From a virus: DNA of 51,262 nucleotides. Within the stretch, counting starts at the first letter, position 1; every line of letters begins with the position of its first letter. The stretch is from positions 1-51,262 of the IMG/VR virus record IMGVR_UViG_3300042868_008286; one strand, written 5' to 3'. Position numbers and translations under genes: made by a program. Below the pieces are notes generated by a model that searched no databases, was not told the origin of the DNA, and saw only the letters and a list, made by a program, of their open reading frames with translations. Shown piece by piece: positions 28,855-46,877 of the stretch.

Positions 28855-29307
28855 ATGAAACCAGTATTCCTAAACAGTGAGACAGACAAACTAGGCAATG
28901 AAATAAACGTTTTCAGGACCGATCAACTTGGCAAGAGCCCCATTTATACATTCTTTCTGCGACAAATGGCAGAACTAATCGATAAAGGATTTGGAACATC
29001 TATTACCACATGGGATGATAAAACCTGCGGAGCTGTTTATGCAGAACAAGATGGCAAGATTTTGGGTCATATTGTATATGATACAGTTAGGCCCAATCAT
29101 CTTTGGATCACTCTTAGTGCTGTTGACGAAACTTGCAGAGGCAGAGGTATCTATACAATACTTCACAAGCACTTTGAGCAAATTGCAAAAGAAAAAGGTT
29201 GTCAATACATTTCAAGTTATGTACACGTTAAAAATCTTGTTCGACAGAAATCTGCTGAAAAGGTAGGAATGAAGCCTTTCTTCTACTTGATGATTAAAGA
29301 AATTTAA
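28855..29307 (+). CDS. GNAT-family N-acetyltransferase, 150 aa
   Basis: The acetyl-CoA-binding motif A reads VDETCRGRGIYTILHKHFEQIAKE (CRGRGI core), preceded by WITLSAV and followed by VKNLVRQKSAEKVGM, all in the usual GNAT order. The acceptor substrate is unknown. It opens a plus-strand unit with the 195-aa protein and two PP-loop genes, so it may act on the same small molecule or peptide. Confidence 0.85.
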   Translation: MKPVFLNSETDKLGNEINVFRTDQLGKSPIYTFFLRQMAELIDKGFGTSITTWDDKTCGAVYAEQDGKILGHIVYDTVRPNHLWITLSAVDETCRGRGIYTILHKHFEQIAKEKGCQYISSYVHVKNLVRQKSAEKVGMKPFFYLMIKEI

Positions 29308-29324
29308 AAATTCTGGCATTTAAC

Positions 29325-29912
29325 ATGAAATATATTATAGTCGATGCTGCGACCCGTGTAATACTTACGTATGTGGAAGATACTAGATTATCTACAAGTT
29401 TAAAGTCTTCTTTATTTGATGTAGACATTATAGCACTTTATCCACACTATGACTTTTACAAAAATATTACCGACAAAAATATTGAAGATAATTGCCTGTG
29501 CATTTCTAAACAAGGCATAGAGTTAAAGTTAGATACCGAAGTTCCTGAGTACATAAAACTTAAAAAATTGTTAGCATTAAAAAAACGAAAAATTGTTAAA
29601 GTACTATTCTTTGTTACTGCAAAATCACTATCAACTTGTAATTTTTTCTTTAATCCAGCCGTAGCCTACTTAATAAATGATATGTTAGAATCAAAAAACG
29701 AAAAATTATTAGATGACTATGTAAGCGGTAGAGGCTTAACAAAAGAAGAAGCATTGAAAGAATTAAAAATTAAATCTGACTCGTTTAATCATATATTAAT
29801 AAAATTACAATCTACCATTGATTATTTTATGGAAGTGATTATTTTGGAAAATGATATTAGTAAATTAGATATTATAGAAAACAAAATTATTAGTAGGATG
29901 GCTGTTGTATGA
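29325..29912 (+). CDS. Hypothetical protein upstream of PP-loop genes, 195 aa
   Basis: No family is recognised. The protein is Lys/Ile/Asp rich and mostly helical after residue 80 (LTKEEALKELKIKSDSF). The stop overlaps the next ATG by 4 nt (ATGA), implying translational coupling and a stoichiometric or accessory role to the PP-loop enzyme downstream. Confidence 0.7.
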   Translation: MKYIIVDAATRVILTYVEDTRLSTSLKSSLFDVDIIALYPHYDFYKNITDKNIEDNCLCISKQGIELKLDTEVPEYIKLKKLLALKKRKIVKVLFFVTAKSLSTCNFFFNPAVAYLINDMLESKNEKLLDDYVSGRGLTKEEALKELKIKSDSFNHILIKLQSTIDYFMEVIILENDISKLDIIENKIISRMAVV

Positions 29913-31027
29913 CACAATCGTTGATAGCATATCAAGCTGATATTCTTAATGCTCAATTAATTGCTGATCCCAAATTTAAAGAATGGTTAGACTTTTATAG
30001 CATTATTCAGGATCGTTGTATAGGCATCAATGATAGAACCAATACATTTAGATTTCCTATACGAACATACGTTCCTGATAAATTTAGGCTACCAGAATTT
30101 AAAAATTCAAGTATTACATATGAAGAATGTGTAATAGAACGTGCTGCACAAATATTAAAACAACAAGAAGATCTCGATATTCCAATACAAATTATGTATA
30201 GTGGAGGAATTGATTCGAGTGTGATTGTATCCTCGTTTATCAAACTTCTAGGAGTAGAACAAGCCTCAAAAAGAATTACTATAAAAATGAATCAAAACAG
30301 TGTCGATGAAAATCCAGAAATGTGGTATAAATTTATAAGACCACATTTCAAAGTTGAAAATAGTGATTTTTCTTATAGTGATAAGGACATAGGTAATTGG
30401 ATTTACGTTATCGGCGAACTAAATGATCAATTATTTGGTGCAGATATTCAACAAAGTTATGAACTGTGGGGTGGTCCCGGTTCATTAAACAAGACAATTA
30501 ATTTTGATACAATGGTAAAGTTTTTTATGGACTCTAAAAAAATATCATCAAGATCAGCAAAAATGTGGACATCATTGTTTATTGAAAATCTAAAAACGTG
30601 CCCGAATCATAATAATCAAGTTTGGGATCTGTTTTGGTGGTATAATTTTACATGGAAATGGATATATGTTTATTATCGATTATTTTTGTTTAGCAACGTA
30701 ACAAACAATATTAATACTGCTTGGTTAGATGATCGATATTTTCCATTTTTTGATACCACAAATTTTCAATTATGGAGTATGAACAATCAAGAGTCTAAAC
30801 ATCTAGGATCATGGAATACATATAAGATTTCTGCAAAAAAGTTTGTGTGTAGCGTATTAGGGTCTAATGAATATTTGCAAAAAGTAAAAAGACCAAGTTT
30901 AAAAAATATATTATATCTACGTCCAAGATTTAACGCAATCACTGCTGATCAAAGTGTAACACAATCTATAGATCTTAGTGATGTATTTGATGATACAAAT
31001 CACATTACAAATTTTAAACATGAATAG
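29909..31027 (+). CDS. Asparagine-synthase-like PP-loop enzyme, 372 aa
   Basis: A perfect PP-loop (MYSGGIDSSVIVSSF, about residues 96-110) shows an AMP-forming, ATP-pyrophosphatase-type domain of the asparagine synthetase C-terminal kind. No N-terminal glutaminase (Cys1) domain is present, so a free amine or another acceptor is likely. Downstream sequence is rich in Trp/Phe/Tyr (WDLFWWYNFTWKWIYVYY). Lasso-peptide cyclases and beta-lactam synthetases are relatives of the same fold, but no specific assignment is justified. Coupled to the next PP-loop gene (8-nt overlap). Confidence 0.75.
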   Translation: MTQSLIAYQADILNAQLIADPKFKEWLDFYSIIQDRCIGINDRTNTFRFPIRTYVPDKFRLPEFKNSSITYEECVIERAAQILKQQEDLDIPIQIMYSGGIDSSVIVSSFIKLLGVEQASKRITIKMNQNSVDENPEMWYKFIRPHFKVENSDFSYSDKDIGNWIYVIGELNDQLFGADIQQSYELWGGPGSLNKTINFDTMVKFFMDSKKISSRSAKMWTSLFIENLKTCPNHNNQVWDLFWWYNFTWKWIYVYYRLFLFSNVTNNINTAWLDDRYFPFFDTTNFQLWSMNNQESKHLGSWNTYKISAKKFVCSVLGSNEYLQKVKRPSLKNILYLRPRFNAITADQSVTQSIDLSDVFDDTNHITNFKHE

Positions 31028-31898
31028 AATTTATACATTTGATAAAAATACAAAAAAGTTCACATACCAAATAGATAATTTTGATAAAGTAACTACAGAT
31101 ACGTTCTTTGATGCAGTTGATAAAACTGTAAAAGATATCAAACAAGAGATGACAGGTTTAGGACTTGATAAAATTGGTCTGTGCCTTTCTGGAATTGACA
31201 GTGAATTAATTGCACATTACATACACCTAAACGACATTCCGGTAGAATATTTTTTCTTTCATATTAACGGAATTAATGATTCTACAAAAATAATAGTTGA
31301 GGATATTGCTAAGAAATATGGTGTTAAATTAAACATTTATGAATTTTCCATTGATGATATTCTAAAATCAATAATACATGAAAATTTTAAAATTACTGAA
31401 GTATGTTGGCCCACGTACTCTACAGTCCCATATATTTTAAAATTAATTCCAAGTGATTTTTATATAATTGTAGGAGAGGGTGATCTAGAAAAAGATAGTG
31501 TAAACAAATACCTAACTATCTTTAATAGAAAAATTACCAATTACGATTCTAGTGTGTTTTACATACCTATGCATCTAACTGAAATAGCTTATCAGCAATC
31601 TTTAAATTTTTATAAAAAATCTGGCGAAATGAATTTTTATAGCAGGATTTTTGATTCGTGGTATCATATTTTAAACAGCAATAAGTTGAGAACTAATGGT
31701 AAGTTTTTTTATGATCCTAAGAGTATATTGCTGGCAGATTTAGTAAAGATGAATTTTGTATCTCCTCTTAAAACTTTAAATTTTGAAAATATGAAATTAG
31801 CAGATACCATAATAACTCTATTAAAAAATAAGGGGTCCGCGAATTGGGACCCCTATATAGGAGATGTTGTATTAGTTCCTAAAAACTTAATATATTAA
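31020..31898 (+). CDS. Degenerate PP-loop (asparagine-synthase-like) protein, 292 aa
   Basis: The loop reads CLSGIDSELIAHYI (about residue 55), lacking one Gly of the SGGxDS consensus, so ATP chemistry may be weakened. The ATG at 31020 overlaps the preceding stop by 8 nt. Later blocks (YIIVGEGDLEKDSVN) resemble the nucleotide-site region of the family. It may form a heterodimer with the upstream PP-loop protein. It ends against the convergent gene at 31895. A perfect 8-bp inverted repeat (31831-31838/31847-31854) lies inside its 3' part. Confidence 0.68.
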   Translation: MNRIYTFDKNTKKFTYQIDNFDKVTTDTFFDAVDKTVKDIKQEMTGLGLDKIGLCLSGIDSELIAHYIHLNDIPVEYFFFHINGINDSTKIIVEDIAKKYGVKLNIYEFSIDDILKSIIHENFKITEVCWPTYSTVPYILKLIPSDFYIIVGEGDLEKDSVNKYLTIFNRKITNYDSSVFYIPMHLTEIAYQQSLNFYKKSGEMNFYSRIFDSWYHILNSNKLRTNGKFFYDPKSILLADLVKMNFVSPLKTLNFENMKLADTIITLLKNKGSANWDPYIGDVVLVPKNLIY

Positions 31899-32200
31899 AT
31901 ATCTTCAAAAATTTTAGGACCTATAGTAATACCAACAGAAGAGTAGTATTCGTTTCTTAAATCCCAGTACGGGACAAGGTCCGGGTCAACATCGTATTCG
32001 TCAAAAGCCGCACGATCAACCCAAACTCCTTCATAAAACATTTTCAATCCATCTTCGCTATATGTGATATTATACGAAATGTGTTTACTTGAATCAATAT
32101 AAGTTTGTAATTTGGTCTTAAATTCGACGGCTGGTAAGACATCCCCGTGCCAAGGAATATCTGCAGAAGGTCTTGTATATTCTCTTTTAATTTTAATCAT
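31895..32200 (-). CDS. Hypothetical protein, 101 aa
   Basis: Start MIKIKREYTRP at 32200 is preferred because GGAG lies 6 nt upstream; a further ATG overlaps that site. Sequence blocks PSADIPWHGDVLPAVEF and FYEGVWVDRAAFDEYDVDPDL look like a small alpha/beta fold of unknown function. It is the last gene behind the cupin. Confidence 0.65.
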   Translation of the reverse strand: MIKIKREYTRPSADIPWHGDVLPAVEFKTKLQTYIDSSKHISYNITYSEDGLKMFYEGVWVDRAAFDEYDVDPDLVPYWDLRNEYYSSVGITIGPKIFEDI

Positions 32201-32212
32201 TGTTATCTCCAA

Positions 32213-32845
32213 TTATTGATTATTTATATATGTTCTAGTTTTCATAGGGTTAGCTTCATCTTTTGGACCGTCTTCACTATCTGGATGAAAAACAGCTAAA
32301 CTCATAAAAGAGTCTGTTGTAAAAAATCTATGTCTAGCGTGTCTGTCTAAAATAAATCGATCACCTTTGGATAATTCAACTACTTCTTTGTCAATTTCAG
32401 CAAATCCCCTACCTTCTAATATTACGCCTATTCGAATACTAGGATGTGTGTGAAATGTTTGCTTTATATCGTTAGGAAAAAACAAATAATTTATACAGGG
32501 ATCTCCGTTACGCAACGGATTAATAATATTGGTATTTGAGCAACCATCTATATAACTTAATTGACCCTGAATAGTAGGATCAAATGTTACCAATTGTTGC
32601 TCTTGAAATTTGTATCCGGGAGTTTCAATAATCAATGCACTCCCATCTAATACAATATTTTCATTTACGCAGGCGCCAAATTTTCCGTTAATTTGATAAG
32701 ATGCCGATACCATCTTACAATTATTTCCAATAATAAATGTTGAATGATTTTTTAATTCAGATGTGTAATGAGTATCTATTACTTTTATTTTTAAAATAGT
32801 CCTATCATAAATTGTTAACTCGTCTGTTATTTTTTGAAATTTCAT
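32213..32845 (-). CDS. Cupin-domain protein, 210 aa
   Basis: The C-terminal half carries cupin motif 1 (TFHTHPSIRIGVILEGRGFAE) and motif 2 (LSKGDRFILDRHARHRF), with His residues suitable for binding one metal. The N-terminal half is beta-rich without motifs. Cupins of this form may be dioxygenases, isomerases or sensors; the substrate is unknown. A TGTAAATA-like motif and a GAGG site lie upstream. It sits between PP-loop genes. Confidence 0.8.
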   Translation of the reverse strand: MKFQKITDELTIYDRTILKIKVIDTHYTSELKNHSTFIIGNNCKMVSASYQINGKFGACVNENIVLDGSALIIETPGYKFQEQQLVTFDPTIQGQLSYIDGCSNTNIINPLRNGDPCINYLFFPNDIKQTFHTHPSIRIGVILEGRGFAEIDKEVVELSKGDRFILDRHARHRFFTTDSFMSLAVFHPDSEDGPKDEANPMKTRTYINNQ

Positions 32846-32895
32846 CGTGACTGCCTCTGTAGTATAGGTAGTATTTACATATCAAAGACACATGT

Positions 32896-33015
32896 TTAAA
32901 AATTTCTTACTATAGGAGAATTAATACAAGTTGATTCATAAATTTCGTTATTACAAGTTTTATCCGCTACTTTGTAAAACCCACAGTTACTTATTAATTG
33001 GGCCTTTAATTTCAT
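32896..33015 (-). CDS. Possible 39-aa cysteine-containing peptide
   Basis: A short frame (ATG 33015, stop 32898-32896) overlaps the 3' end of the PP-loop gene by 29 nt. The product reads MKLKAQLIS, then three spaced cysteines (SNCGFYK, KTCNNE, STCINS). There is no obvious ribosome site, so it may be spurious or a remnant. Its place directly behind an asparagine-synthase-like gene raises the possibility of a modified-peptide precursor. Confidence 0.3.
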   Translation of the reverse strand: MKLKAQLISNCGFYKVADKTCNNEIYESTCINSPIVRNF

Positions 33016-33907
33016 TATAAAGTTGAGTTATAGTTCTATCTATTTGTTGCCTGTAGGGCAAACCATTGTACTTATTTTTCAATACAAGTTGAACTTCAGC
33101 AACTAGATCATCAATTTTTTCAAATCCTGTCTGTTTCTTGCGTTCGATAATATCGGGATACATTTCTCGAAAGCCTAGTATTTTTGTAGAATTGATGCCT
33201 AATCGTCCACGGTATTCGTCGTTTACTAATTTTTTAAACCAGGTTAACGTAGTATACCCTAAAACCAATCCAGGTGACCACTTAAACCATTGATAAATTG
33301 CAGGACGATTATGTAGAATGTTGTATTTGTCACATCCTAAATCGTGTTCAAAATCTTGCATCAACCAAGTACCCTTTTTACTATAGTCATCATCTGTACG
33401 ATACCATCTTACATCACTATGCCCTACAATAATTAACCCATCGGCACAGTCTGTAAATTTAAGATGGGGTAGCATTCTAGGTCTATCTATTTGTGCATCT
33501 TCTGATACTTTTACTGCATCGTTTTCATAAAACTTTTTTAAGTTAAAGTCTACTATTGTATAATCAATATTAAGAATAGAACATACGGTAACGGCATAAC
33601 TTACATCATAAATGTTTAGATCATTTTCGTACCTAACAACATAAACCTTAGGGTTTGAGCCAATTGCTAGGTAGGAACGTAGTATTATTTCGCTATCTAC
33701 TCCACCACTAAAAAATATGCAAGGTCTTAATCCTGGATAATGATCTATAGTGCTTTTGGCTGCTTCGATTAATTCTTCTTTGAACGATAATAATGGTCTA
33801 TCCATTTTAGTGTAAATGGTTTTAAGCTCTTTATTTTCAATTTGTCTCCCAAATAAAGCATCATTGCCGTATTTCCATTGATACCAATTATTTTCACTTG
33901 TATACAT
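32987..33907 (-). CDS. Third asparagine-synthase-like PP-loop enzyme, 306 aa
   Basis: The PP-loop is FFSGGVDSEIILRSYL (about residues 65-80), with a downstream GLIIVGHSDVRWYRTDDDY segment. The N-terminus (NNWYQWKYGNDALFG) has no glutaminase domain. The gene starts 14 nt inside the upstream hydroxylase-like gene, making a desaturase-hydroxylase-PP-loop unit. Possible role: ATP-dependent amide or ester formation on a fatty-acyl or peptide substrate, which is inference from context only. Confidence 0.75.
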   Translation of the reverse strand: MYTSENNWYQWKYGNDALFGRQIENKELKTIYTKMDRPLLSFKEELIEAAKSTIDHYPGLRPCIFFSGGVDSEIILRSYLAIGSNPKVYVVRYENDLNIYDVSYAVTVCSILNIDYTIVDFNLKKFYENDAVKVSEDAQIDRPRMLPHLKFTDCADGLIIVGHSDVRWYRTDDDYSKKGTWLMQDFEHDLGCDKYNILHNRPAIYQWFKWSPGLVLGYTTLTWFKKLVNDEYRGRLGINSTKILGFREMYPDIIERKKQTGFEKIDDLVAEVQLVLKNKYNGLPYRQQIDRTITQLYNEIKGPINK

Positions 33908-34325
33908 TTTTGTGAGTTCCGAATATTATGTCCCATATTGGCATGAATAGCCCATAATTAGAATTATTCCGATGATGAATCAAATGCCATTTACCACTAG
34001 TAAGAATAGGTAAATTAAAATTTGAATTATGTTCTATTGATTCTTGTATAAATGCAGCCCATATATAATAGAACACACTAATCCACCATTGACCAGTTAC
34101 TAAACTAAACAACAATGTAGGAATAACTTCAGTGAGCCATAAGTCTAACGTGCTAGTCCAATCATCATTAAATAATACTAAATTAGACCAATGCCACGTT
34201 GTAGTATGGTTTAATACAAATCTATGGTGATGCATATGTATAGTACGTACTACAGGCAGTTTGTGCCCTATTCTATGAATCCAATATAGAATTAACGTCC
34301 ATAGAAAGAAATACAGAAGAAACAT
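33894..34325 (-). CDS. Fatty-acid hydroxylase/sterol desaturase-like membrane protein, 143 aa
   Basis: Histidine clusters typical of the superfamily are present: WIHRIGHKLP, HMHHHRF, QESIEHNSNF and WHLIHHRNN. Hydrophobic stretches occur at residues 1-17 and about 60-95. The di-iron enzymes of this family hydroxylate or desaturate membrane lipids. At 143 aa it is short for the family, probably a minimal version. Start ATG abuts the stop of the desaturase gene. Confidence 0.82.
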   Translation of the reverse strand: MFLLYFFLWTLILYWIHRIGHKLPVVRTIHMHHHRFVLNHTTTWHWSNLVLFNDDWTSTLDLWLTEVIPTLLFSLVTGQWWISVFYYIWAAFIQESIEHNSNFNLPILTSGKWHLIHHRNNSNYGLFMPIWDIIFGTHKNVYK

Positions 34326-35099
34326 TTAAATCTTTATCAATTTAATAATTAGACCTGATATGTCAACTTCCCACCACTTTGTACCAAAGTATGAATTCTT
34401 AGGATATCTGTGATGATTGTTGTGCCAACTTTCTCCCCAACTGGGAATTGACCATAACCAATTATTTGTGCTTTGATCTGATAGATTATAAGTTCGATAA
34501 CCGCCAAACCAGTTTGGCATATGCCCTACATAGTTAACTACATTACTCATAAGTCCAGTAATCACTGCTGGCATCCAATGTGCAAATACCATTAACCAGA
34601 AGCCGCCGGCAACAAAAAGTACAGCACTATAAGCTATAAGAATGGCAAAATAATAACGGTGTAAGAACTGTTGAAATTTATCAGTAACTAGATCACGCAT
34701 ACGCCATTTAGTATCCGCACTGATTTGATTAACATAATCTAGTGTAAAAATTTTAACGCCTTTGTGTAAAGGACTGTGTGGGTCTTCTGGTTTGTCGCTC
34801 TTTAAGTGATGGTTGATATGAATAGCAACCCAGGCTAATGGACTGCCGGTGCCCGCAAAACAGCCTACAACTGAAAGTATTTTAGTTAACCATGGATATG
34901 TTTTGTAACTGTTATGCGTTAACCGTCTATGATATGTTATTACGATTCCTAAACACCCGTAAACAAAGTAACCTAGTAAAACTAACAACAATTCAATTGC
35001 ACTCATGCCGTAGATATATACGCCTAGTATAGATCCTAGCAAAGATATGATTAAAAATAGTTGGGCACCCAACGTACTGCTTGAAAAATAGTTCTTCAT
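34326..35099 (-). CDS. Fatty-acid desaturase (delta-9 type), 257 aa
   Basis: The three histidine boxes are complete: HRRLTH (about residue 55), HINHHLKSDKPEDPHSP (about 92) and WHNNHH (about 223). Several membrane helices flank them. The enzyme should insert a double bond into acyl chains using host electron carriers, as no ferredoxin is seen. A GATAAATA motif, overlapping the stop of the upstream gene, ends 5 nt before ATG. Confidence 0.9.
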   Translation of the reverse strand: MKNYFSSSTLGAQLFLIISLLGSILGVYIYGMSAIELLLVLLGYFVYGCLGIVITYHRRLTHNSYKTYPWLTKILSVVGCFAGTGSPLAWVAIHINHHLKSDKPEDPHSPLHKGVKIFTLDYVNQISADTKWRMRDLVTDKFQQFLHRYYFAILIAYSAVLFVAGGFWLMVFAHWMPAVITGLMSNVVNYVGHMPNWFGGYRTYNLSDQSTNNWLWSIPSWGESWHNNHHRYPKNSYFGTKWWEVDISGLIIKLIKI

Positions 35100-35103
35100 G
35101 CAA

Positions 35104-35685
35104 CTATTTATCAGGTAAATTGTGGCCTTTAAGTTTTCTAGATTTTATAACAATATTATCTGGTTTCAATTCCTGTCCCATTAATCTCCAGTACAATTCA
35201 AATTCTGGTTTGGTATTTGCTGGAACAACAGCCAGTGTAGTCAAGTCATACTTTCCTTGAATTGCATATGAATTTTTCTTCCATTGTCTTTCGTATACCC
35301 GTTCTAGTCTTTCTGCTATACTGTAAAAGTATTGATGATACCCTCGCCCTTCTGCTATGTCAAATGCCGCTTTAAACAACATTCCAAATTCGGGCCGGTT
35401 AAAATTAAAATAAGACGTATAAACAGAACTAAAAAAATTTGAGATTACCCAAAATTTTCCTCGCATCTTACTTTCGTAAAACCCTACAGTTATCCAACTA
35501 ATTAATTTACCATCTTCAAAATAACCAATTCCTACAGAATTGTTAGATTTAGATTCTTCTCGAAGAGCTTGATAACGTTCGGGGGATATTGGAGTAGTAC
35601 CGCTTATTTTTTTACGAGAAAAAATAATTTGTTTACAAAATTCTTCGTACTCTTGATTGCCAGTAATTTCACGAACTTCTGTCAT
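35104..35685 (-). CDS. GNAT-like/unknown protein between two desaturases, 193 aa
   Basis: Segments VGIGYFEDGKLISWITVGF, AAFDIAEGRGYHQYFYSIAERL and ERQWKKNSYAI suggest a GNAT-like fold, but the classical acetyl-CoA loop is not evident. Its position between two desaturases suggests an acyl or lipid-related function. Similar overall layout to the 200-aa protein at 37120-37722. Confidence 0.6.
   Translation of the reverse strand: MTEVREITGNQEYEEFCKQIIFSRKKISGTTPISPERYQALREESKSNNSVGIGYFEDGKLISWITVGFYESKMRGKFWVISNFFSSVYTSYFNFNRPEFGMLFKAAFDIAEGRGYHQYFYSIAERLERVYERQWKKNSYAIQGKYDLTTLAVVPANTKPEFELYWRLMGQELKPDNIVIKSRKLKGHNLPDK
35105..35112 (-). promoter_or_regulatory. Late-type motif GATAAATA before desaturase
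   Basis: Overlaps the DK-stop codons of the upstream gene; 5 nt separate it from ATG 35099. Confidence 0.5.
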
Positions 35686-35689
35686 AGTG

Positions 35690-36442
35690 TTATTGTTTTA
35701 TAAAATTTATTAATACTCCAATTGGATCGTATTCATATTTTAATACTTTTGTCGAAGTTTTTTGGGCGTTGGCATGGTGATTATTATGCCAAGCATCGCC
35801 TAGTATAAACGGCCAAAGATACAAATTGTTAGTGCTACGATCTGTTGTTTCAAAATTTCGATAACCCTTCATATGTGCAAAATAATTAAACATAGTTTGA
35901 GTCACACTGACTACAAATACAGGAATAGCCCACATATAAAATATCAAATTAAAATCAATTATAGACAACAATACTAGGAAACTTAGTATTAGCAAAAGAT
36001 AATACTTGTCAATTTTTATGTGTGCGGTAGTTAATAATTCTTTTACAATAAAGTGATTGATTTTTGTATTTTCTTGTATAGGTTTAAATCCTATAAACTT
36101 AAAAGTATCGTAATGCGGACTGTGAGGATCTTTTTCGGTGTCAGAAGTTGCGTGATGAATACGGTGTATATACACCCAACCTAGGGGACTTCCGCGGCCT
36201 GATAGCACAGCAAACACAGTAAAGAACCATTTGATCACTGAGTTTAGTTTAAAACTTTTGTGGCTGTAATATCTGTGCAGCATCATGCTGATTCCCAACA
36301 CACTATACCCGTAGAACATCAATACGGATAGCAATATGTATTGCCAAGAAACATCTGCAACGAATGGACACACTATAATAAGTGCGATTGACAAGAGTTG
36401 GATTATACGCAATGTATTCGGGGAAGACGAAAATAGTTTCAC
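35690..36442 (-). CDS. Second fatty-acid desaturase, 250 aa
   Basis: Histidine boxes HRYYSH, HRIHHATSDTEKDPHSP and WHNNHH are all present with membrane helices between them. It is diverged from the first desaturase, so the two may act on different positions or substrates. Start codon is GTG at 36442, 4 nt after AATAAATA. It heads the minus-strand unit that runs through GNAT-like, desaturase, hydroxylase and PP-loop genes. Confidence 0.88.
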   Translation of the reverse strand: MKLFSSSPNTLRIIQLLSIALIIVCPFVADVSWQYILLSVLMFYGYSVLGISMMLHRYYSHKSFKLNSVIKWFFTVFAVLSGRGSPLGWVYIHRIHHATSDTEKDPHSPHYDTFKFIGFKPIQENTKINHFIVKELLTTAHIKIDKYYLLLILSFLVLLSIIDFNLIFYMWAIPVFVVSVTQTMFNYFAHMKGYRNFETTDRSTNNLYLWPFILGDAWHNNHHANAQKTSTKVLKYEYDPIGVLINFIKQ

Positions 36443-36446
36443 TCAG

Positions 36447-36481
36447 TATTTATTATGTAACTCATGACGCCTGATTAAATA
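36447..36481. promoter_or_regulatory. Divergent late promoters
   Basis: Minus strand AATAAATA (36454-36447), 4 nt before GTG 36442. Plus strand ATTAAATA (36474-36481), 4 nt before ATG 36486. Together they organise the two halves of the island. Confidence 0.6.
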
Positions 36482-36485
36482 ACAT

Positions 36486-37106
36486 ATGAACAATATTATA
36501 TTGCTACCGATTGATCTGCCTAAGCTGGAATTAAACAGAGACAAGACATTAGAATACTTTGATGCTAGAAAAGAAAGACATCAAGATTGGAATTGGGTTA
36601 ACTTTAAAAAAACAAATCAGCCAATTGATCCGGAACTATTGAAACTTTTTCCAGATCTGGATGAAAAACTACGAGCAATTCCGTTGTTAGATTATGATAA
36701 CGGTGGACATTTTGATTTTAGAGAGCAATTTGTCAATAATAAACCGCACCAAGATCCCATTGCCAAGTCCCTAGCGCCCTCCAATCTAGGACCTACTGCT
36801 TACAAAAATCTAGTAATGCGTGACATGTTAGAGACATTTTATGTATTACCAAACTCTACAAATCCCGATATTGTTCAGTATGATGCAAGATCTAGAGAAA
36901 AATTAAATCCAGTATTTCCTATACTTCCCGATACCACTGATTGGTTTATTCTAAATAATCATCTAGGATATCACGGATCGTTTTTAGCCCCAAAAGAGTA
37001 TAGAAAAATCACAATGTTTATTGCAGGCAAACTAGATTCTACAAAACATCTAGAACTTCTAAATAGAAGCATCGAAAAATATAAAGATTACATCATTTAT
37101 AATTAA
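36486..37106 (+). CDS. 2OG-Fe(II)-oxygenase-like protein, 206 aa
   Basis: Belongs to a family repeated in this window: N-terminus NIILLPIDLPKLEL and C-terminus LLNRSIEKYKDYIIYN. A possible facial triad is NKPHQDPIA (H-x-D) and GYHGSF. The jelly-roll 2OG-oxygenase assignment rests on this pattern and on similarity with better matches nearby; the reaction is unknown. First gene of a plus-strand unit of three. Confidence 0.6.
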   Translation: MNNIILLPIDLPKLELNRDKTLEYFDARKERHQDWNWVNFKKTNQPIDPELLKLFPDLDEKLRAIPLLDYDNGGHFDFREQFVNNKPHQDPIAKSLAPSNLGPTAYKNLVMRDMLETFYVLPNSTNPDIVQYDARSREKLNPVFPILPDTTDWFILNNHLGYHGSFLAPKEYRKITMFIAGKLDSTKHLELLNRSIEKYKDYIIYN

Positions 37107-37119
37107 GTATCAAGGTAAA

Positions 37120-37722
37120 ATGAGAGTTTCAACATATAACAATTTGTCCGCTATTGAAAAAACAAACTTTTATTTTTTTCTTGAGTCGACACACTTAGAA
37201 TTAAAATCTGCTAATATTAATATGTGGCACAAGGATTGGAAAAATGAAAAACATACATTGCCTTTTATCTTAAATAAAACAGATAGATTTAATGATAACA
37301 GTGGTGCATACCATATAGTATTTGACGGAGAAACTATAGTTGCTTGCGGGGGTGTATATATTAGTAATTTTTCTCAAGATGTTGCATTTGTGGGTGTAAG
37401 GACATGGGTTAATAAAATTTATCGTCATCAAAGCATTCTTAGGGAATATCTATTTCCTATACAAAAAATCTGGTGCCAAGAAAAAAACATAAAAATTATA
37501 GCATTAACATTTAATGATTATAACAAAAATCTTATACAGGTCTTCCAAAAACGACGATTAGGTGAGACTAAAGAAAGGATTACTACTCGACAACCCCGTC
37601 ATCTTTTTTACAACAATTTAATTGAAGTAGAATTCCCTGTAATGATACAATATACTAAGCAATGGGTAATATATGAAAAATTGGATTCTACGTTTAATTT
37701 TGATTGGAGCACTGTGAAATGA
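37120..37722 (+). CDS. GNAT-like acetyltransferase, 200 aa
   Basis: The segment GAYHIVFDGETIVACGGVYI followed by VGVRTWVNKIYRHQSILREYLFP resembles GNAT beta-strands and acetyl-CoA helix. The substrate is unknown. The stop overlaps the next ATG (ATGA). Flanked on both sides by oxygenase-like genes. Confidence 0.65.
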   Translation: MRVSTYNNLSAIEKTNFYFFLESTHLELKSANINMWHKDWKNEKHTLPFILNKTDRFNDNSGAYHIVFDGETIVACGGVYISNFSQDVAFVGVRTWVNKIYRHQSILREYLFPIQKIWCQEKNIKIIALTFNDYNKNLIQVFQKRRLGETKERITTRQPRHLFYNNLIEVEFPVMIQYTKQWVIYEKLDSTFNFDWSTVK

Positions 37723-38324
37723 TTCCTGTATCAATACCATTAATTTTTCCTAAGGTTGTACCCAATGACTGGGAAATATGGAATAAAGTATGGGAGAAAA
37801 ATAAAAAATTTGTTCCGAAGTCATTGCAGACAAAAAACTTAGCACAAGCCTATTGGGTGGGATTTGATATCTATGTTAAACCAGGTATAGACTCAAATGA
37901 TATTATGCCGTACACATGTAAGAATGTAAACTGTCCTGAACTATTTCCATCATTGTTTGATCACTTAGATAAACTTCCTATTGAAGTACATGTAGTTCGG
38001 ATGTTGCAAAGTTTCACTAAGGTCTACGCTCATCAAGACTTTGCCTCAATTTCAGGATACAATTCAATAAGAAGTTTATTAACTGATAACAATCCAAAAC
38101 AAACTTGGTGGTATGAAGATAGTAATACGAACAAGCACTATCTAAAATTACCGGAAGATACTAACACTTGGTGGTATGATGATGCAAAAGTAAAACACGG
38201 CACTGATTTTAATCCTCGATATAACAAACAACTAATTATGTATCAAGGACCTATAAAAGAATCTTTAAAATCTGTGTTAACAGATAGTATACAAAAATAT
38301 TCAGATTACGTCATCTATGTTTAA
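37719..38324 (+). CDS. 2OG-Fe(II)-oxygenase-like protein, 201 aa
   Basis: Start MIPVSIPLIFPKV is chosen at the ATGA overlap with the GNAT gene. Possible metal ligands are VYAHQDFASISGYNSIR (H-x-D) and VKHGTDFN. The C-terminus VLTDSIQKYSDYVIYV matches the family signature seen in the neighbours, and a remnant of a paralogue of this gene survives at 39264-39317. Confidence 0.62.
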   Translation: MIPVSIPLIFPKVVPNDWEIWNKVWEKNKKFVPKSLQTKNLAQAYWVGFDIYVKPGIDSNDIMPYTCKNVNCPELFPSLFDHLDKLPIEVHVVRMLQSFTKVYAHQDFASISGYNSIRSLLTDNNPKQTWWYEDSNTNKHYLKLPEDTNTWWYDDAKVKHGTDFNPRYNKQLIMYQGPIKESLKSVLTDSIQKYSDYVIYV

Positions 38325-38361
38325 TAAAAATATAGGTAGCAATATTCTCTAAACAGCTTCT

Positions 38362-38898
38362 TTATCTACTTATTATATAAGGTGAAAGTTTTTCTAATAT
38401 ATTAGTTTTCACAAGTGATCGTATACTTAAACACCAACGTCCGCTGTCAGTGCTGTAATTATGAACTGAATGTGGTATGTCTGTTCTTACCAGGCATAAT
38501 CCTTTAATTTCAGTTTCTTCTATAATCTCAACTTGATCTGAAGTATAGAAAAAATAAGGAGTATTAGCAGTAGTCAATACCCTTTTAGGTGTACTTCCTT
38601 TTTTAATTGAGTACCATTTCATAATAGAATTAGAACTCCCCCATGCATAATTAATAGCCCAACCGCCTGCATGATTATCTATATGAATATACGTTAAACC
38701 AGCAGGAGGACCGTAAAATAAATTAATAAAGAGTGGGATATCTAGCGTAGATAAGAAATCAATAATCTCGGGTGATAGTATATCCTCTTTATTGAGAATC
38801 TTATGAGTTAACCAACCTGTACCTGAAACGTAATTTTCTTGTTTAAAATTTTCAACAATGATGTTCTTGTTAAAATCAATTAGGTAGTAGTTGTCCAT
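38362..38898 (-). CDS. 2OG-Fe(II)-oxygenase-like protein, 178 aa
   Basis: A jelly-roll metal site is suggested by LTYIHIDNHAGGWAINYAWG (H-x-D) and DIPHSVHNYSTDSGRWCLSIR, where the late Arg would bind 2-oxoglutarate. Start MDNYYLID at 38898 is chosen because a perfect TATAAATA lies 8 nt upstream; the longer frame begins upstream of that promoter. Substrate unknown. Confidence 0.72.
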   Translation of the reverse strand: MDNYYLIDFNKNIIVENFKQENYVSGTGWLTHKILNKEDILSPEIIDFLSTLDIPLFINLFYGPPAGLTYIHIDNHAGGWAINYAWGSSNSIMKWYSIKKGSTPKRVLTTANTPYFFYTSDQVEIIEETEIKGLCLVRTDIPHSVHNYSTDSGRWCLSIRSLVKTNILEKLSPYIISR

Positions 38899-38906
38899 TA
38901 TAAAAA

Positions 38907-38914
38907 TATTTATA
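38907..38914 (-). promoter_or_regulatory. Perfect T4 late promoter TATAAATA
   Basis: Exact match to the T4 late consensus, 8 nt before ATG 38898. Confidence 0.65.
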
Positions 38915-38927
38915 TAAAGCACCGGGT

Positions 38928-38955
38928 AGTATAGGATCTTGATCCTATACTTTTA
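38928..38955 (+). terminator. Palindrome with plus-strand T-run
   Basis: AGTATAGGAT pairs perfectly with ATCCTATACT around a 4-nt loop, followed by TTTAT on the plus strand. It could stop plus-strand transcription approaching the divergent minus gene. The stem is A+T-rich, so activity is uncertain. Confidence 0.45.
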
Positions 38956-38999
38956 TCTAATAATTGATCAAAAAATAGTATAGCATCCTAATGTTAGTG

Positions 39000-39263
39000 C
39001 TATTCTAAACCTTTAATGAGTGGATGAAACTCGCCGCCTATCAACATGTCTAATGGATGTTTCTTTCCAAAAAAATCATTAGTAACCCATGCATCTTCTT
39101 CTTCGATGTAATCGAACCAAGGACTAAATCCTAGAACAACGTGTATACGTTGAAAGTTTTTTTCTTTACAGGAAATACTCGATGAGGTAGGTTTGTGTCC
39201 CAGCTATAGACATTTCCATATTCTAAAAATTCAGGTTCTGAATTTTCCATTTGAAACAAACAA
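39000..39263 (-). pseudogene. Frameshifted, 5'-truncated 2OG-oxygenase-like gene
   Basis: The minus strand encodes a family C-terminal half: EFLEYGNVYSWDTNLPHRVF, then after a frame change FQRIHVVLGFSPWFDYIEEE and a stop at 39002-39000. The frame breaks in a run of seven A (39163-39157). The His of LPHRVF and Arg of QRIHVV are typical metal and 2-oxoglutarate ligands. No N-terminal half is present; the frame runs into the plus-strand remnant at 39264. It is decayed rather than functional. Confidence 0.75.
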
Positions 39264-39317
39264 TCTGTATTAGAGGATAGTAAACAAAAATATTCAGATT
39301 ACGTCATTTACGTTTAA
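39264..39317 (+). pseudogene. 3'-end remnant of a paralogue of the 37719-38324 gene
   Basis: Eighteen codons encode SVLEDSKQKYSDYVIYV and a stop, nearly identical to the last codons of the gene at 37719-38324 (SVLTDSIQKYSDYVIYV). The rest of the gene is absent; the remnant is fused back to back with the truncated minus-strand pseudogene, marking a deletion junction near 39264. Confidence 0.8.
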
Positions 39318-39363
39318 CAAGAAAAAAGGTAATCTTATATAATAATTATTTATTGGTAGATAA

Positions 39364-40071
39364 TTAAATTTCTGGACTCCAATAAATTGCTGAATCTTTA
39401 TAATGTTCGGCAGAAGATACAATTAAGTTTTGAAGATGTTGAGGAATTTCAGACGTGGTTTTGCCAGTGCTTACTATTACAGCAAGTCTTTTTGAACTGG
39501 GTATATTTTTATTCACAGCATGGATTGCTCTCACGTTATTGATATAAAATACTTGTTGCGGATTTGGAATATTAGCCGCATATTGTACATCTTGAATAAA
39601 TTCCCAAGGTCCAAGAGGATCAATTGCTGATAGTAATTCTGAATGTGAATTGTGTGGAAGTTTTGTTGGTTTAATCAACAGAGAGTTTTCTAACTCTGTG
39701 TTTTCTAAATACATACGTAGTCCCCATTTATCAGGATCACGGTGCCAAAATCCTAATCCACGATGATTGTCTTTTACTGGTAGTAAAACAACAGAGTCGA
39801 TTTCTGAAGTTGCTAAGTTGTATGCATCTCCAAAAAAAGAAGCTAATTGTGGAAATTCTTTATCAAAATTAAAACGCCATACTCTATCGTATTTTGCATA
39901 TATGATAGTCCACGGATATATATCACCTGTTATATGTTTACTTGAATCTGGTCGAGATTGAATTGTTTGAGTAACATAAAATTTATGTACCCACGATAAC
40001 AACTTTGTATAATCATAAGTTGGAAAATCTAGCGACACTAACGGTGTATATAAAATATCAATTGGCCTCAT
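39364..40071 (-). CDS. 2OG-Fe(II)-oxygenase-like protein, 235 aa
   Basis: Possible facial triad: GLGFWHRDPDKWGLRMYLEN (H-x-D) and VRAIHAVNK, followed by KRLAVIVS. The C-terminus LIVSSAEHYKDSAIYW fits the family signature. The resemblance is to phage aspartyl/asparaginyl-hydroxylase-like proteins, but the target is unknown. Confidence 0.7.
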   Translation of the reverse strand: MRPIDILYTPLVSLDFPTYDYTKLLSWVHKFYVTQTIQSRPDSSKHITGDIYPWTIIYAKYDRVWRFNFDKEFPQLASFFGDAYNLATSEIDSVVLLPVKDNHRGLGFWHRDPDKWGLRMYLENTELENSLLIKPTKLPHNSHSELLSAIDPLGPWEFIQDVQYAANIPNPQQVFYINNVRAIHAVNKNIPSSKRLAVIVSTGKTTSEIPQHLQNLIVSSAEHYKDSAIYWSPEI

Positions 40072-42713: not shown

Positions 42714-42717
42714 GTGG

Positions 42718-42788
42718 TGCTCTAGCCAAGAATTGAACTTGAAATTCAGTCTTACCAAGACTGTGTAATACCATTTTACTACAAGAGC
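42718..42788 (-). tRNA. tRNA-Thr(GGT)
   Basis: Acceptor GCTCTTG/CTAGAGC (one T-T mismatch), anticodon loop TTGGTAA on stem CAGTC/GACTG, T-loop TTCAATT, encoded CCA at 42717-42715. One base separates it from the CCA of tRNA-Arg. Confidence 0.9.
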
Positions 42789-42792
42789 GTGG

Positions 42793-42864
42793 TCCGGCCT
42801 ACAGGAATCGAACCCATATTCACGGTGTAGAAGACCGCTGTATTATCCATTATACTAAGGCCGG
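42793..42864 (-). tRNA. tRNA-Arg(TCT)
   Basis: Acceptor CCGGCCT/AGGCCGG, D-stem GTAT/ATAC, loop CTTCTAC (anticodon TCT, reading AGA), T-loop TTCGATT, CCA encoded (42792-42790). Confidence 0.9.
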
Positions 42865-42870
42865 ATAAAG

Positions 42871-42909
42871 AAAAACCCTGCCCTAAGTACTATGTCTTAG
42901 AGGGCAGGG
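42871..42909 (-). terminator. Int. Rho-independent terminator
   Basis: On the minus strand CCCTGCCC-TC-TAAG pairs with CTTAGGGCAGGG (2-nt bulge, 8-nt loop) and is followed by TTTTT (42875-42871). It ends the unit containing the gene at 42968-43402. A TATAAT (42945-42940) without a good -35 lies just upstream, so a short terminated RNA is possible. Confidence 0.85.
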
Positions 42910-42967
42910 CCGTGTTGTTGATGACAGACTATTTGGCTCATTATACTCCGCCTGTCAGGGAGAGTTG

Positions 42968-43402
42968 TTATTTTACATCGTACTCGTAGTTTACGGTGTC
43001 TAAATTTTCTCTAAAAACTCCGGCGCCATTTTTGGTATGAAACTTCTTGGCCATATCGGTCTTTGGACTCAGAGTGACAAAGCGTTCTATGCTGGGAAAT
43101 TGCTTTTGTATTTCTGCTACAGTTGCTCTCAGCAATTCTACACCAGCCCCCGGGGCGTAACTCCAAATGGTGTAGAAAATTGCTGCGGTTGGCACTTCCG
43201 TATCTTTGATCAAATCATCGACATCTTCCGGTATGAAATCGTGTAAACTCACACATACCATAGCTCGAGGAATGTCATCAACTAGAGCACTCACAAACTT
43301 GTTCTTTCCTACCCTAAACTCCTTAGGCAACTCAGGGCGAACAGGATCATCCTTTATGTAATCTAGGAGTGGGTCAGTGAGATTGGTGATAAAGGATAAC
43401 AT
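42968..43402 (-). CDS. GNAT-like protein, 144 aa
   Basis: The pattern NKFVSALVDDIPRAMVCVSLHDF, then AAIFYTIWSYAPGAGVELLR and FVTLSPKTDMAKKFHTKNGA suggests the GNAT fold. The acetyl-CoA loop (APGAGVELL) is atypical. Substrate unknown. A GTCTTTT/AAAAGAC hairpin lies just upstream in the 60-nt gap. Confidence 0.6.
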   Translation of the reverse strand: MLSFITNLTDPLLDYIKDDPVRPELPKEFRVGKNKFVSALVDDIPRAMVCVSLHDFIPEDVDDLIKDTEVPTAAIFYTIWSYAPGAGVELLRATVAEIQKQFPSIERFVTLSPKTDMAKKFHTKNGAGVFRENLDTVNYEYDVK

Positions 43403-43464
43403 TTTTTTCTTTCAGTTTATATGCGTACTTATGTCTTTTAGACAAAAAGACTGTTACAGTTTTA

Positions 43465-44043
43465 TTACGGTAGATATTCTACGTCCACTGCTAGGATAAA
43501 TCTATAATCATTGCTTTGGACCACGCCCGGTCGATGCCATTGATTACTGGGATACAACAACCAACTGTAATCAGTAGGGCGAACAAAGAACTTTCCTTCG
43601 CCTTGGGGTCCATTTGGCGCCATTTCAGTTCCGCAATAATCACGGTCTTTTACATCCTCGGGAATATGCAGATAAAATATACCACTCAGCATCTTGGCAT
43701 TTGGATTTGTAGGATGCCAATGATCGTGCCATAGCTTTTCACGATCTTCTACACCTTCTAGATTGGTCATAAATGCCCAGGCCATCATGTTATTGACTTT
43801 TACTTCTCGCCCAAGATACATAAACACACTGAACAAGAAACTCATACGGTACTTTAACCATACAGCTTCGGGTCTTGCAAATATGTTTTCTTGGGTTTGA
43901 TACTTTGGACTATTTTTAAAATAGTTCCCATCGGCGACAATATTCTTTATAATGCCTATGGCAGTTGTATTATCTTCTTTACCGATCGTAGAACTAAAGT
44001 CAAATTTTCTAAAGGTATCGTTTCTGTCAATAACTGTGTGCAT
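43465..44043 (-). CDS. 2OG-Fe(II)-oxygenase-like protein, 192 aa
   Basis: Ligand candidates are LWHDHWHPTNPNAKMLSGIFYL and SNQWHRPGVVQSNDYRFILAVD; the late Arg would bind 2-oxoglutarate. The layout of His motifs around a beta-rich core fits the phage oxygenase family. ATG 44043 is 7 nt after the tRNA-Gly 3' end, so tRNA processing would leave a near-leaderless message. Confidence 0.78.
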   Translation of the reverse strand: MHTVIDRNDTFRKFDFSSTIGKEDNTTAIGIIKNIVADGNYFKNSPKYQTQENIFARPEAVWLKYRMSFLFSVFMYLGREVKVNNMMAWAFMTNLEGVEDREKLWHDHWHPTNPNAKMLSGIFYLHIPEDVKDRDYCGTEMAPNGPQGEGKFFVRPTDYSWLLYPSNQWHRPGVVQSNDYRFILAVDVEYLP

Positions 44044-44050
44044 AATTTGG

Positions 44051-44121
44051 AGCGGGGTAACAGAATCGAACTGTCCGCATCAGATTGGAAATCTGAGGTA
44101 TTACCACTATACGAACCCCGC
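44051..44121 (-). tRNA. tRNA-Gly(TCC)
   Basis: Acceptor GCGGGGT/ACCCCGC, anticodon arm TCAGA-TTTCCAA-TCTGA, T-loop TTCGATT, discriminator T; CCA is not fully encoded (TCC follows). Confidence 0.9.
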
Positions 44122-44135
44122 ATTGTTATTTCTAT

Positions 44136-44321
44136 TTATTCGTCGTCTTCTGGAGGATTGGCCAAAGGTGAAGTTGAAGGCTTTTTCTTAGACCACATTG
44201 AATATGATTCTCCTTCGACCCTACCACTTTGATTTGGTTTTAGTTGTTGAACTACACCACCTTTGGCTAGAAACTCAGCCATCGCTGCTTCTGTTGCCGC
44301 TTGATTTTCTGCTTTTGTCAT
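44136..44321 (-). CDS. Small conserved phage protein, 61 aa
   Basis: Product MTKAENQAATEAAMAEFLAKG then GGVVQQLKPNQSGRVEGES is a common small phage protein of unknown function. AAGG lies upstream of ATG. Confidence 0.72.
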   Translation of the reverse strand: MTKAENQAATEAAMAEFLAKGGVVQQLKPNQSGRVEGESYSMWSKKKPSTSPLANPPEDDE

Positions 44322-44356
44322 TGTTGCCTTTTATAAAAAATTTGGTAGAAAACTGA

Positions 44357-44953
44357 CTAAATTATTAATTCAGTATTGAAACTAATAATTATTCGTTCGT
44401 CCGACTTATTCAACTCAGTGTCTGAACCATGTGGTAACCAGCTGGGAAATACTATTAATTTCCCAACAGTGGGTTCGAAACTCATTTTATTGTATGTATA
44501 TGTTGTAAGATGTTTTTTAGGTAGATATTCTAAAAAAGGATTAACATTATTAAAAATAATTTTACTACTATTATTATCTACTTGCAAATACAATACGCCC
44601 GATATTAAACTAGAATAATGAGTATGGGTTAATAATGCACTATCTTTATATTGAAAACTAGCCCAAGAATTACCTAGTTTACCACAGTTGTAACCAGATG
44701 TTTTTTCATATTCTAACACAATATCAGATAATGATGATAACATATTAGCACATGATTTTACATGTTGTTGAATGTCTTCTAATAATCTATTAGAAATATT
44801 AAATGTAGTAAACGATTTCCCAGTCATTGCCGGATAAGGTTTTTTAGGTAATCCTCGTATGTAAGTGACAATATCATTGCACTGAGTTACAGTCAAAAAC
44901 TCTGAAACTTCAAAAAGTGAAATTGGAAATAGATTACATTTTGTTATTTTCAT
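44357..44953 (-). CDS. 2OG-Fe(II) oxygenase-like protein, 198 aa
   Basis: Clear superfamily pattern: ALLTHTHYSSLISGVLYLQ, then GKLIVFPSWLPHGSD and DERIIISFN, giving metal His residues and a 2OG-binding Arg. Start MKITKCNLFP is at 44953; the longer frame runs through the tRNA-Pro gene and is rejected. The gene lies 13 nt after the tRNA CCA. Substrate unknown. Confidence 0.82.
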   Translation of the reverse strand: MKITKCNLFPISLFEVSEFLTVTQCNDIVTYIRGLPKKPYPAMTGKSFTTFNISNRLLEDIQQHVKSCANMLSSLSDIVLEYEKTSGYNCGKLGNSWASFQYKDSALLTHTHYSSLISGVLYLQVDNNSSKIIFNNVNPFLEYLPKKHLTTYTYNKMSFEPTVGKLIVFPSWLPHGSDTELNKSDERIIISFNTELII

Positions 44954-44969
44954 AAATTTAAAAAATTGG

Positions 44970-45043
44970 TCGGAGTACAAGGATTCGAACCTTGGACCCC
45001 CTGGTCCCAAACCAGGTGCGCTACCAGACTGCGCCACACTCCG
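44970..45043 (-). tRNA. tRNA-Pro(TGG)
   Basis: Acceptor CGGAGTG/TACTCCG, anticodon arm CCTGG-TTTGGGA-CCAGG, T-loop TTCGAAT, discriminator A, CCA encoded (44969-44967). Confidence 0.95.
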
Positions 45044-45045
45044 AA

Positions 45046-45195
45046 TTAATTGGGAATCATATGAGGAACATAGGGCACTGCTCTAGGACCGTATCTCTGT
45101 TGCAGAAGCTTCATTGCTTCCTGTGCTGTTTCTGCACCAACACGATCCTTGAATTCTTTGCCGTTGACTCTGATTGTTGCTTCAAATAATTTCAT
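45046..45195 (-). CDS. Small hypothetical protein, 49 aa
   Basis: ATG 45195 (MKLFEATIRVNGKEF) starts 5 nt after the tRNA CCA; a longer frame overlaps the tRNA and is rejected. Contains LLQQRYGPRAVPY; function unknown. Confidence 0.65.
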   Translation of the reverse strand: MKLFEATIRVNGKEFKDRVGAETAQEAMKLLQQRYGPRAVPYVPHMIPN

Positions 45196-45203
45196 AATAT
45201 TGG

Positions 45204-45276
45204 TTGCAGGAGTCGGAGTCGAACCGACGATCTGAAGCTTATGAGACTTCCGAGATACCACCTTCTCCATCCTGCG
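45204..45276 (-). tRNA. Initiator-like tRNA-Met(CAT)
   Basis: Acceptor CGCAGGA/TCCTGCA leaves C1 opposite A72, the bacterial initiator hallmark. The D-stem has A11-T24, also initiator-type. Loop is CTCATAA. The anticodon stem GAAGT/GCTTC lacks the three G-C pairs of bacterial initiators. T-loop is TTCGACT, discriminator A, CCA encoded (45203-45201). The register is fixed by the encoded CCA and 7-base acceptor. Confidence 0.85.
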
Positions 45277-45596
45277 ATAACTTTATTAAAACAAACTAAG
45301 GCATATTAAAAGTTATAGCTATGCTAAAGAGCTCCGGGGAAGCCAAACCTAATCAAGTATTTCTACAAGATTCTAATTTGTTCTAATAAAGTGTCCGGCT
45401 ACTTACACCACATAAGCCCCGAACTGAGCGGTTACTCTGTCCATAACATTTATTCTTCTGGAAAGGTGCTAAACCTCACCCAATGCGTTCTAGTATCCCT
45501 TAACTCAGAGAACTAATGGTCATAGCATTGAATACCCGGCGCTCTCTATGGTGACTGCCCCACCCCCGTTTATTACGTGTACGGGATCACGGGTTT
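45277..45596 (-). ncRNA. Gene-free, potentially structured 320-nt region with tRNA-adjacent inverted repeat
   Basis: No open frame of interest is seen. An 18-bp stem (45374-45391 with 45281-45298, two G-U pairs in the minus-strand RNA) ends 4 nt before the initiator-like tRNA. Further small stems are CCCGT/ACGGG, CATAG/CTATG and AGGT/ACCT. The sequence looks more G+C rich than nearby genes. An untranslated structured RNA is plausible, but I could not match it to a known family. Confidence 0.5.
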
Positions 45597-46169
45597 TTAA
45601 ACTAAACCTTCTGATTGCAATGTTGCCACTACTTCTTCACTGAGTGGAATCTCTGTTTTGATATTTAACTCAAGTACTTCATCGTTGAGTTTCTGCTTTT
45701 GTTTCTTGAGATTTTTAATCTCTGTACTAATCACATCTAGCTGTTCGTGACCGATGACATTAGTAGACACTGTGTCACTAAATCCATAGATACGGCTACG
45801 GCTACTTTCGCTCTTGTCGTTGCGAATCTTGTCCAACTTACCGTTGATCACGGCAAGATTAGTTACAGGATCTACTACAAGACCTTCAAGTTGAGCAACA
45901 CGTTTGTCCACAAAGGCAGCAGTGGCCAATTTCAAATCAATGCCGCTTTGTGCGTTGGCACTGCCCACAAGACCACGAATGTTATACAAGGCCAACAGCA
46001 GGCGTTGTCTCCGACTGTCGTTGTTAAACAGCGTATCGTTGGCATTCTTTAGTTCTACTGCTACATCTTGAAATTCATTGAGATCAATCGATGTTGTGAT
46101 TTTAATGCCCTTGATAGCATCATTGATGCTGTTTTGTAGGGCGCTGGCTTTTCTAAGTGAAATATTCAT
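45597..46169 (-). CDS. Helical conserved hypothetical protein, 190 aa
   Basis: Start MNISLRKASALQNSIND at 46169 follows AAAGGA and overlaps the rpoZ stop by 17 nt. The protein is largely helical with a coiled coil near residues 140-165 (EIKNLKKQKQKLNDEVLELN). No known function. Coupled to rpoZ, so it might act in the same process. Confidence 0.72.
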   Translation of the reverse strand: MNISLRKASALQNSINDAIKGIKITTSIDLNEFQDVAVELKNANDTLFNNDSRRQRLLLALYNIRGLVGSANAQSGIDLKLATAAFVDKRVAQLEGLVVDPVTNLAVINGKLDKIRNDKSESSRSRIYGFSDTVSTNVIGHEQLDVISTEIKNLKKQKQKLNDEVLELNIKTEIPLSEEVVATLQSEGLV

Positions 46170-46398: not shown

Positions 46399-46524
46399 AT
46401 TTTCCTCAGGTTAAAAAACGGTTCAGTGAAAGGTCAAGTAAAAGACTGGACAATGTGCAAATAACAATGCTCAATATACAATCCACAGGGGTCACTATAT
46501 TTCCGGAAACAAGACACAATTCTG

Positions 46525-46626
46525 TCATATCCCAAAGGCCGGAACACAATGACACGGATACTTTTTCAGAGTATTTGGAGTTAAGTTCCATTTAGCATGA
46601 AGCCAAACAGTAGTGTCTTCTCTCAT
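46525..46626 (-). CDS. Possible 33-aa leader peptide
   Basis: ATG 46626 with AAAGG close upstream, stop TGA 46527-46525; product begins MREDTTVWLHAKWNLTPN and ends PAFGI. It lies in the about 270-nt leader before rpoZ. Another 61-aa frame (46591-46406, hydrophobic) overlaps it without a ribosome site. Either may be non-coding leader sequence. Confidence 0.3.
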   Translation of the reverse strand: MREDTTVWLHAKWNLTPNTLKKYPCHCVPAFGI

Positions 46627-46871: not shown

Positions 46872-46877
46872 AATATT

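Follow-up and report, generated by a model that had tools for sequence, protein, structure and literature searches.

Do the enzyme genes at positions 28855-40071 of this viral DNA encode a single pathway, and what would such a pathway make? The preliminary description of the window (the whole stretch of DNA analysed, 51,262 nt) had proposed one pathway that modifies acyl chains and forms amide bonds. This island packs 16 ORFs into 11.2 kb with a coding share of 94%, and adjacent ORFs mostly overlap or are spaced by ≤20 nt. Its GC content is 29-36%, against about 40-45% on both flanks. A tail-fibre gene with an Mtd_N domain adjoins the island, and ThyX is also encoded in the window (both by Pfam). 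An array of 18 tRNA genes occupies 42715-51225 on the minus strand, and tRNAs were the sole matches of the Rfam search. All the ORFs named in the preliminary description are present where it had placed them. It had also seen no standard virion gene among them, which agrees with the PHROG search: the island has no virion-family match save a weak one of GNATa to a "host range and adsorption" family, found among acetyltransferase matches.

Two complete fatty-acid desaturases had been claimed, and both carry three His boxes and score above the PF00487 cut-off. These are desA (34326..35099, minus strand; HRRLTH, HINHH and HNNHH; E 2.8e-20) and desB (35690..36442, minus strand; HRYYSH, HRIHH and HNNHH; E 1.3e-15), with 73.6 and 58.3 bits, respectively, against a curated cut-off of 29.7. 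The island desaturases are hydrophobic and DesA-family-like, and the three His boxes are found in at least 133 of 159 desaturases. Between them and PPc lies the short protein already described as resembling fatty-acid hydroxylases, FAH (33894..34325, minus strand), a di-iron protein of that superfamily that scores 52.4 against the 31-bit cut-off of PF04116 (E 9.6e-14) and whose His residues are invariant in 8 relatives. In a FastTree phylogeny of 146 desaturases, the desB clade has exactly one member per locus in 41 loci (support 1.0). The desA clade, separate from it, has about one member per locus in 42 loci, with a support of 0.50 for the widest clade and 0.98 for a 40-member one. Since desA and desB fall into separate one-per-locus clades, the pair is old and has been retained together in about 41 phages. 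Desaturase copies reach 8 in one locus group, and in two loci (L007 and L019) a FabF-like ketosynthase lies among the desaturase genes. The dN/dS values of desA, desB, GNATb, ox1, ox2, FAH, PPc and GNATc are 0.08-0.22, the ox4 pair being too similar to judge and desA versus L014 being saturated at synonymous sites.

Three PP-loop proteins resembling asparagine synthase (AS) had been listed; the motif is intact in two of them, PPa and PPc, and degenerate in PPb. PPa (29909..31027, plus strand) has an intact SGGIDS and a weak Asn_synthase match (E 0.015; 15.4 bits, below the PF00733 curated cut-off of 21), and its family is present in 15 locus groups. PPb (31020..31898, plus strand) reads LSGIDSE and has no relevant Pfam match. 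PPc (32987..33907, minus strand), with an intact FSGGVDS, has no PF00733 match in Pfam, and its QueC match is below the cut-off; SGGxDS is kept in nearly all 26 members of its family. An AlphaFold2 model of PPc built with the 26 relatives reached a mean pLDDT of 93.9. Its best fold match in the PDB is a beta-lactam synthetase (about 300 columns, TM about 0.5, 11-13% identity), asparagine synthetase and carbapenam synthetase come next among the near full-length matches, and NAD synthetases match the nucleotide-binding part. PPc lacks the N-terminal Ntn-type domain, for which there is no room because the protein has only 306 residues against 500 in the best fold match. Its most plausible chemistry would be that of a stand-alone AS C-domain-like ligase, namely carboxylate adenylation followed by amide formation or transfer. 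A QueC/7-deazaguanine reading of PPc was rejected on its score below the cut-off and on the best fold matches, which are of the AS, NAD-synthetase and sulfurtransferase types. Another phage SGGxDS protein of about 390 aa, PP3, has over 500 relatives in IMG/VR (L035-L112 and others). It forms 47 adjacent pairs with a gene for a TctC-type periplasmic receptor (105 locus groups, both orders counted), and a PDB profile search with PP3 gave no significant match.

The three GNAT-like proteins of the preliminary description were recovered, two by Pfam and the third by its fold. GNATa (28855..29307, plus strand) is an N-acyltransferase by its Acetyltransf_1 match (E 9.5e-14). GNATc (37120..37722, plus strand; Pfam E 2.8e-4) is a phage-only GNAT. 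The divergent GNATb (35104..35685, minus strand) has no Pfam match and is fused to ox2 in two locus groups. For one natural fusion of this kind, taken from a relative, the AlphaFold2 model (mean pLDDT 91.6) has structural matches to both GNAT acetyltransferases and 2OG hydroxylases, among them L-proline cis-4-hydroxylase. PDB profile searches with GNATb, GNATc and ox2 gave no significant match. Several oxygenase-like proteins had also been proposed. The assignment stands for ox2 (37704..38324, plus strand), a 2OG-Fe(II) oxygenase that combines this fold with the HxD...H facial triad, as H110, D112, H165 and K175 (HxD...H...K) are found without exception in 16 family members. The others show weak similarity only: ox1 (36486..37106, plus strand) to ox2, and ox3 (38362..38898, minus strand) and ox4 (39364..40071, minus strand) to related island families. 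Between ox3 and ox4, an apparent broken remnant of another gene was seen on the minus strand (38923-39363). The expected cupin is at 32213..32845 (minus strand; Cupin_2 E 1.1e-8). The remaining ORFs include g02 (29325..29912, plus strand), a protein of 195 aa with no assigned function and a weak match to phrog_11400, and u8 (31895..32212, minus strand; about 105 aa), homologues of which adjoin a P450 gene and, in several locus groups, are fused to the jmj30 family. Cassettes of the small u8 protein with a cytochrome P450 and PP3 were observed in L036, L039, L042 and L123, some with the u8-jmj30 fusion.

The question of a single pathway was addressed by co-occurrence in relatives. With desA as first bait, thirty viral contigs were fetched, all of which hold further island genes. 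As this bait selects desaturases, GNATc was taken as the second one. It gave 64 viral loci, or 51 groups after near-duplicates were merged, some of them reached by other baits too. A desaturase is found within 10 kb in 48 of the 51 groups, where about 7 would be expected: random windows of the same size from large phage records hold a desaturase 13% of the time, a conservative estimate because the phages that supplied these windows were already known to have desaturases. PPc is present in 37/51 groups and an oxygenase of the ox3/ox6 families in 36/51, while 13 GNATc groups, but not one of the remaining 54 groups, contain FAH. Which genes are present, and in what order, is shuffled from relative to relative; B12-type radical SAM and Rieske proteins, the ox families, P450, ketosynthase, ATP-grasp proteins and aminotransferases recur among them. 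The island genes are thus not scattered without co-occurrence, and the proposal of one pathway is well supported by the non-random association, the conserved operons and the GNAT-oxygenase fusions.

The conserved operons bring in an acyl carrier protein (ACP). A PF00550 search of 14 large phage records found an ACP in six, inside the island in four (two of these, G012 and G014, are near-identical there). Three of the four ACPs tested score above the Pfam cut-off and the fourth is half a bit short. The gene orders are DES-DES-ACP on one strand with overlapping genes (L186), GNATb-ACP-u-DES (L187) and GNATc-ACP-PPc-GNAT-DES (L188), where DES is a desaturase. The L186 carrier protein alone, used as a scan query, matched only itself. 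The L188-type ACP family, used as bait in IMG/VR, gave 15 full-length matches (L194-L207 and L210), about nine of them independent; the other 13 matches cover the motif region only and are without island genes. In all 15, the next gene downstream of the ACP belongs to the PPc family; a desaturase gene comes after it in 14, the fifteenth contig ending before that point. A GNATc-like gene precedes the ACP in 14/15 loci, and most have a further GNAT between PPc and the desaturase. This operon, GNAT-ACP-PPc ligase-GNAT-desaturase in about nine relatives, is new here. Nothing else in the data speaks as strongly for acyl or aminoacyl chemistry on a carrier as these ACP operons, which make carrier-bound acyl-amide chemistry the best reading. 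They use paralogues of PPc and of the desaturase, not the orthologues of the window genes (the protein at L021:4175 shares 24% identity with PPc of the window), and L021 has both kinds of module in one region. No carrier protein was found in the window, so one from the host or from elsewhere in the phage genome would have to serve.

Late-type promoters had also been proposed. Across the entire window, the motif TATAAATA, the core of the T4 late promoter, shows no enrichment (2 occurrences versus 4.8 expected); it is enriched before the unit-first island genes of relatives, preceding 48 of 261 against 8 in shuffles. It is hardly enriched upstream of genes inside units. In the window, the motif or near-matches lie 11-16 nt from the starts of desB (36442), GNATa (28855), ox4 (40071), ox1 (36486) and ox3 (38898). 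At desB, the late-type promoter AATAAATA (36442..36454, minus strand) has the start codon 12 nt from its first base, and the ATG of ox3 is downstream of TATAAATA at 38907-38914. Most often the ATG is 12-13 nt from the first base of TATAAATA. T4 late transcripts start at this same distance downstream of that base. The ATG is therefore at about the expected transcription start and the messages may be leaderless, which suggests leaderless late mRNAs in these jumbo phages, both inside and outside the island. With 7 of 8 positions matching, a peak at 13 nt is also seen among in-operon genes, so that some internal promoters may exist.

Taking these data together, we judge the chances to be about even that the island is a late-expressed, phage-specific biosynthetic cluster for an acyl-amide that is unsaturated and hydroxylated, with an N-acyl amino acid or a lipid-like molecule as the most likely product. 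The stand-alone AS-like ligases PPa and PPc would activate a carboxylate by adenylation, then couple it to an amine or transfer it to a carrier, and the GNATs would N-acylate. In the membrane, desA, desB and FAH would unsaturate and hydroxylate the acyl chain, and the 2OG oxygenases could hydroxylate the amino-acid part. The direct support comes from the enzyme classes, the conserved co-occurrence and operon order, and the ACP in the sister modules of relatives. The acyl-chain and amide chemistry of the original proposal is likewise supported by the intact desaturases, the fold of the stand-alone AS-like ligase and the ACPs. Several results count against such a pathway. The window yielded no carrier protein, and the ACP modules use paralogues of the window genes. 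Proteins of the acyl-AMP-ligase type (PF00501) turned up in just 3 of the 14 large phages, never beside desaturases, and the GNAT fold search returned ordinary acetyltransferases, not N-acyl amino-acid synthases. For the predicted acyl-amide, the candidates are a lipid tag, a membrane modification and a free metabolite; it may alter the envelope, exclude competitors or be released as an antimicrobial. More tentatively, uncultured T4-type jumbo phages could possess virus-specific, carrier-protein-based natural-product pathways, combinatorially diversified from phage to phage and switched on late in infection, in which an AS-like ligase replaces the NRPS or acyl-AMP ligase and is accompanied by desaturases, GNATs and oxygenases.

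The same enzymes could instead tailor membrane lipids or aminolipids that are already present, much as OlsB/OlsC/OlsE do with ornithine lipids, altering fluidity or blocking superinfection with no new free product. We consider this remodelling of the host envelope unlikely. The DesA-like hydrophobic desaturases with intact boxes, the FA_hydroxylase domain, the GNAT-hydroxylase fusion and late expression would all fit it, but up to 8 desaturases per locus, and the P450, Rieske, radical SAM, ketosynthase and carrier proteins of relatives, exceed the needs of fluidity, and the GNATs have no match to a known OlsB-type model by hmmscan. It seems improbable that structural proteins of the phage or surface glycans are decorated, with tail-fibre residues or sugars as the substrates of the 2OG oxygenases, GNATs and ligases: this leaves unexplained the conserved membrane desaturase pair, FAH and the carrier proteins, even though the island adjoins the Mtd_N tail-fibre gene, late promoters are present, Pelagibacter phage Mosig shows a comparable position, and the ox2 fold is like that of amino-acid and prolyl hydroxylases. 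A loose collection of independently useful auxiliary genes at a hypervariable site, as the shuffled content and order, the low GC and the apparent gene remnant might indicate, is already strongly disfavoured by the 48/51 co-occurrence, the fixed ACP-PPc-GNAT-desaturase operon, the fusions and the orthologous desaturase pair.

The carriers of the island are uncultured T4-type jumbo phages. The large relatives measure 164-357 kb and a T4-type portal is present in 9 of 14 records, one being closest to those of Sinorhizobium phage Phosso, the PA5oct group and Agrobacterium phage Atu_ph07 (about 50% identity). Their lake origin is taken from the IMG/VR sample series as a whole, not contig by contig. 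Among the 50,697 deposited phages of INPHARED, no match was obtained with the island DNA, nor by tblastn with PP3, PPc, GNATc, ox2 and PPa. GNATc and PP3 were not confirmed in any of 84,980 prokaryote species genomes by a pattern-based scan that could miss distant relatives. A match in Acinetobacter phage MD-2021a (L034, CAKLQH020000002.1) was set aside, its neighbours being bacterial housekeeping genes; with accD, trp genes and a two-component system, this contig resembles a host chromosome. No description of such an island was found among the open-licence papers searched. Phages with single metabolic genes or with short cassettes are known. A cluster of several enzymes that is conserved, has a dedicated carrier protein in relatives and consists of families without a match in deposited phages or, where searched, in the prokaryote genomes would imply that viruses evolve their own biosynthetic pathways, and some of them may produce a natural product of their own while infecting. 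Such islands are a potential source of new chemistry, and they raise the questions of which molecule appears late in infection and whom it affects.

Several known systems can be compared with the island. Its enzyme classes resemble those of aminolipid tailoring. The ornithine-lipid pathway uses an OlsB-type N-acyltransferase. The island GNATs have no Acetyltransf_5 match by hmmscan, and the GNATb fold is generic. The metabolic island of Pelagibacter phage Mosig EXVC030M has a desaturase, Asp_Arg_Hydrox, a GNAT and an aminotransferase beside tail fibres; only DES, an aminotransferase and two marginal matches are common to both, and no similarity to the PP-loop, GNATc or FAH families was found there. 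PPc shares the PP-loop SGGxDS and the C-domain fold with the beta-lactam/asparagine synthetase family, from which it differs by its 306 aa and the missing N-terminal glutaminase-like domain. Roitman reportedly described cyanophage-encoded lipid desaturases in 2018. Membrane desaturases are phage-borne in both cases, but here an orthologous desaturase pair is combined with other enzymes in one operon, and the carriers are other T4-type jumbo phages.

Alkyne and polyyne clusters comprise jamABC with two further desaturases, a thioesterase and a rubredoxin, JamA being a fatty acyl-AMP ligase (PMC8406139). In the operons of relatives, several membrane desaturases likewise lie next to an ACP, which was not found in the window, and some relatives have a P450. 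The island was not filed as an alkyne or polyyne cluster because the defining fatty acyl-AMP ligase, mostly absent, is missing near its desaturases. Instead, the ligase step is apparently performed by AS-like PP-loop enzymes, GNATs and 2OG oxygenases are added, and the whole set is phage-borne.
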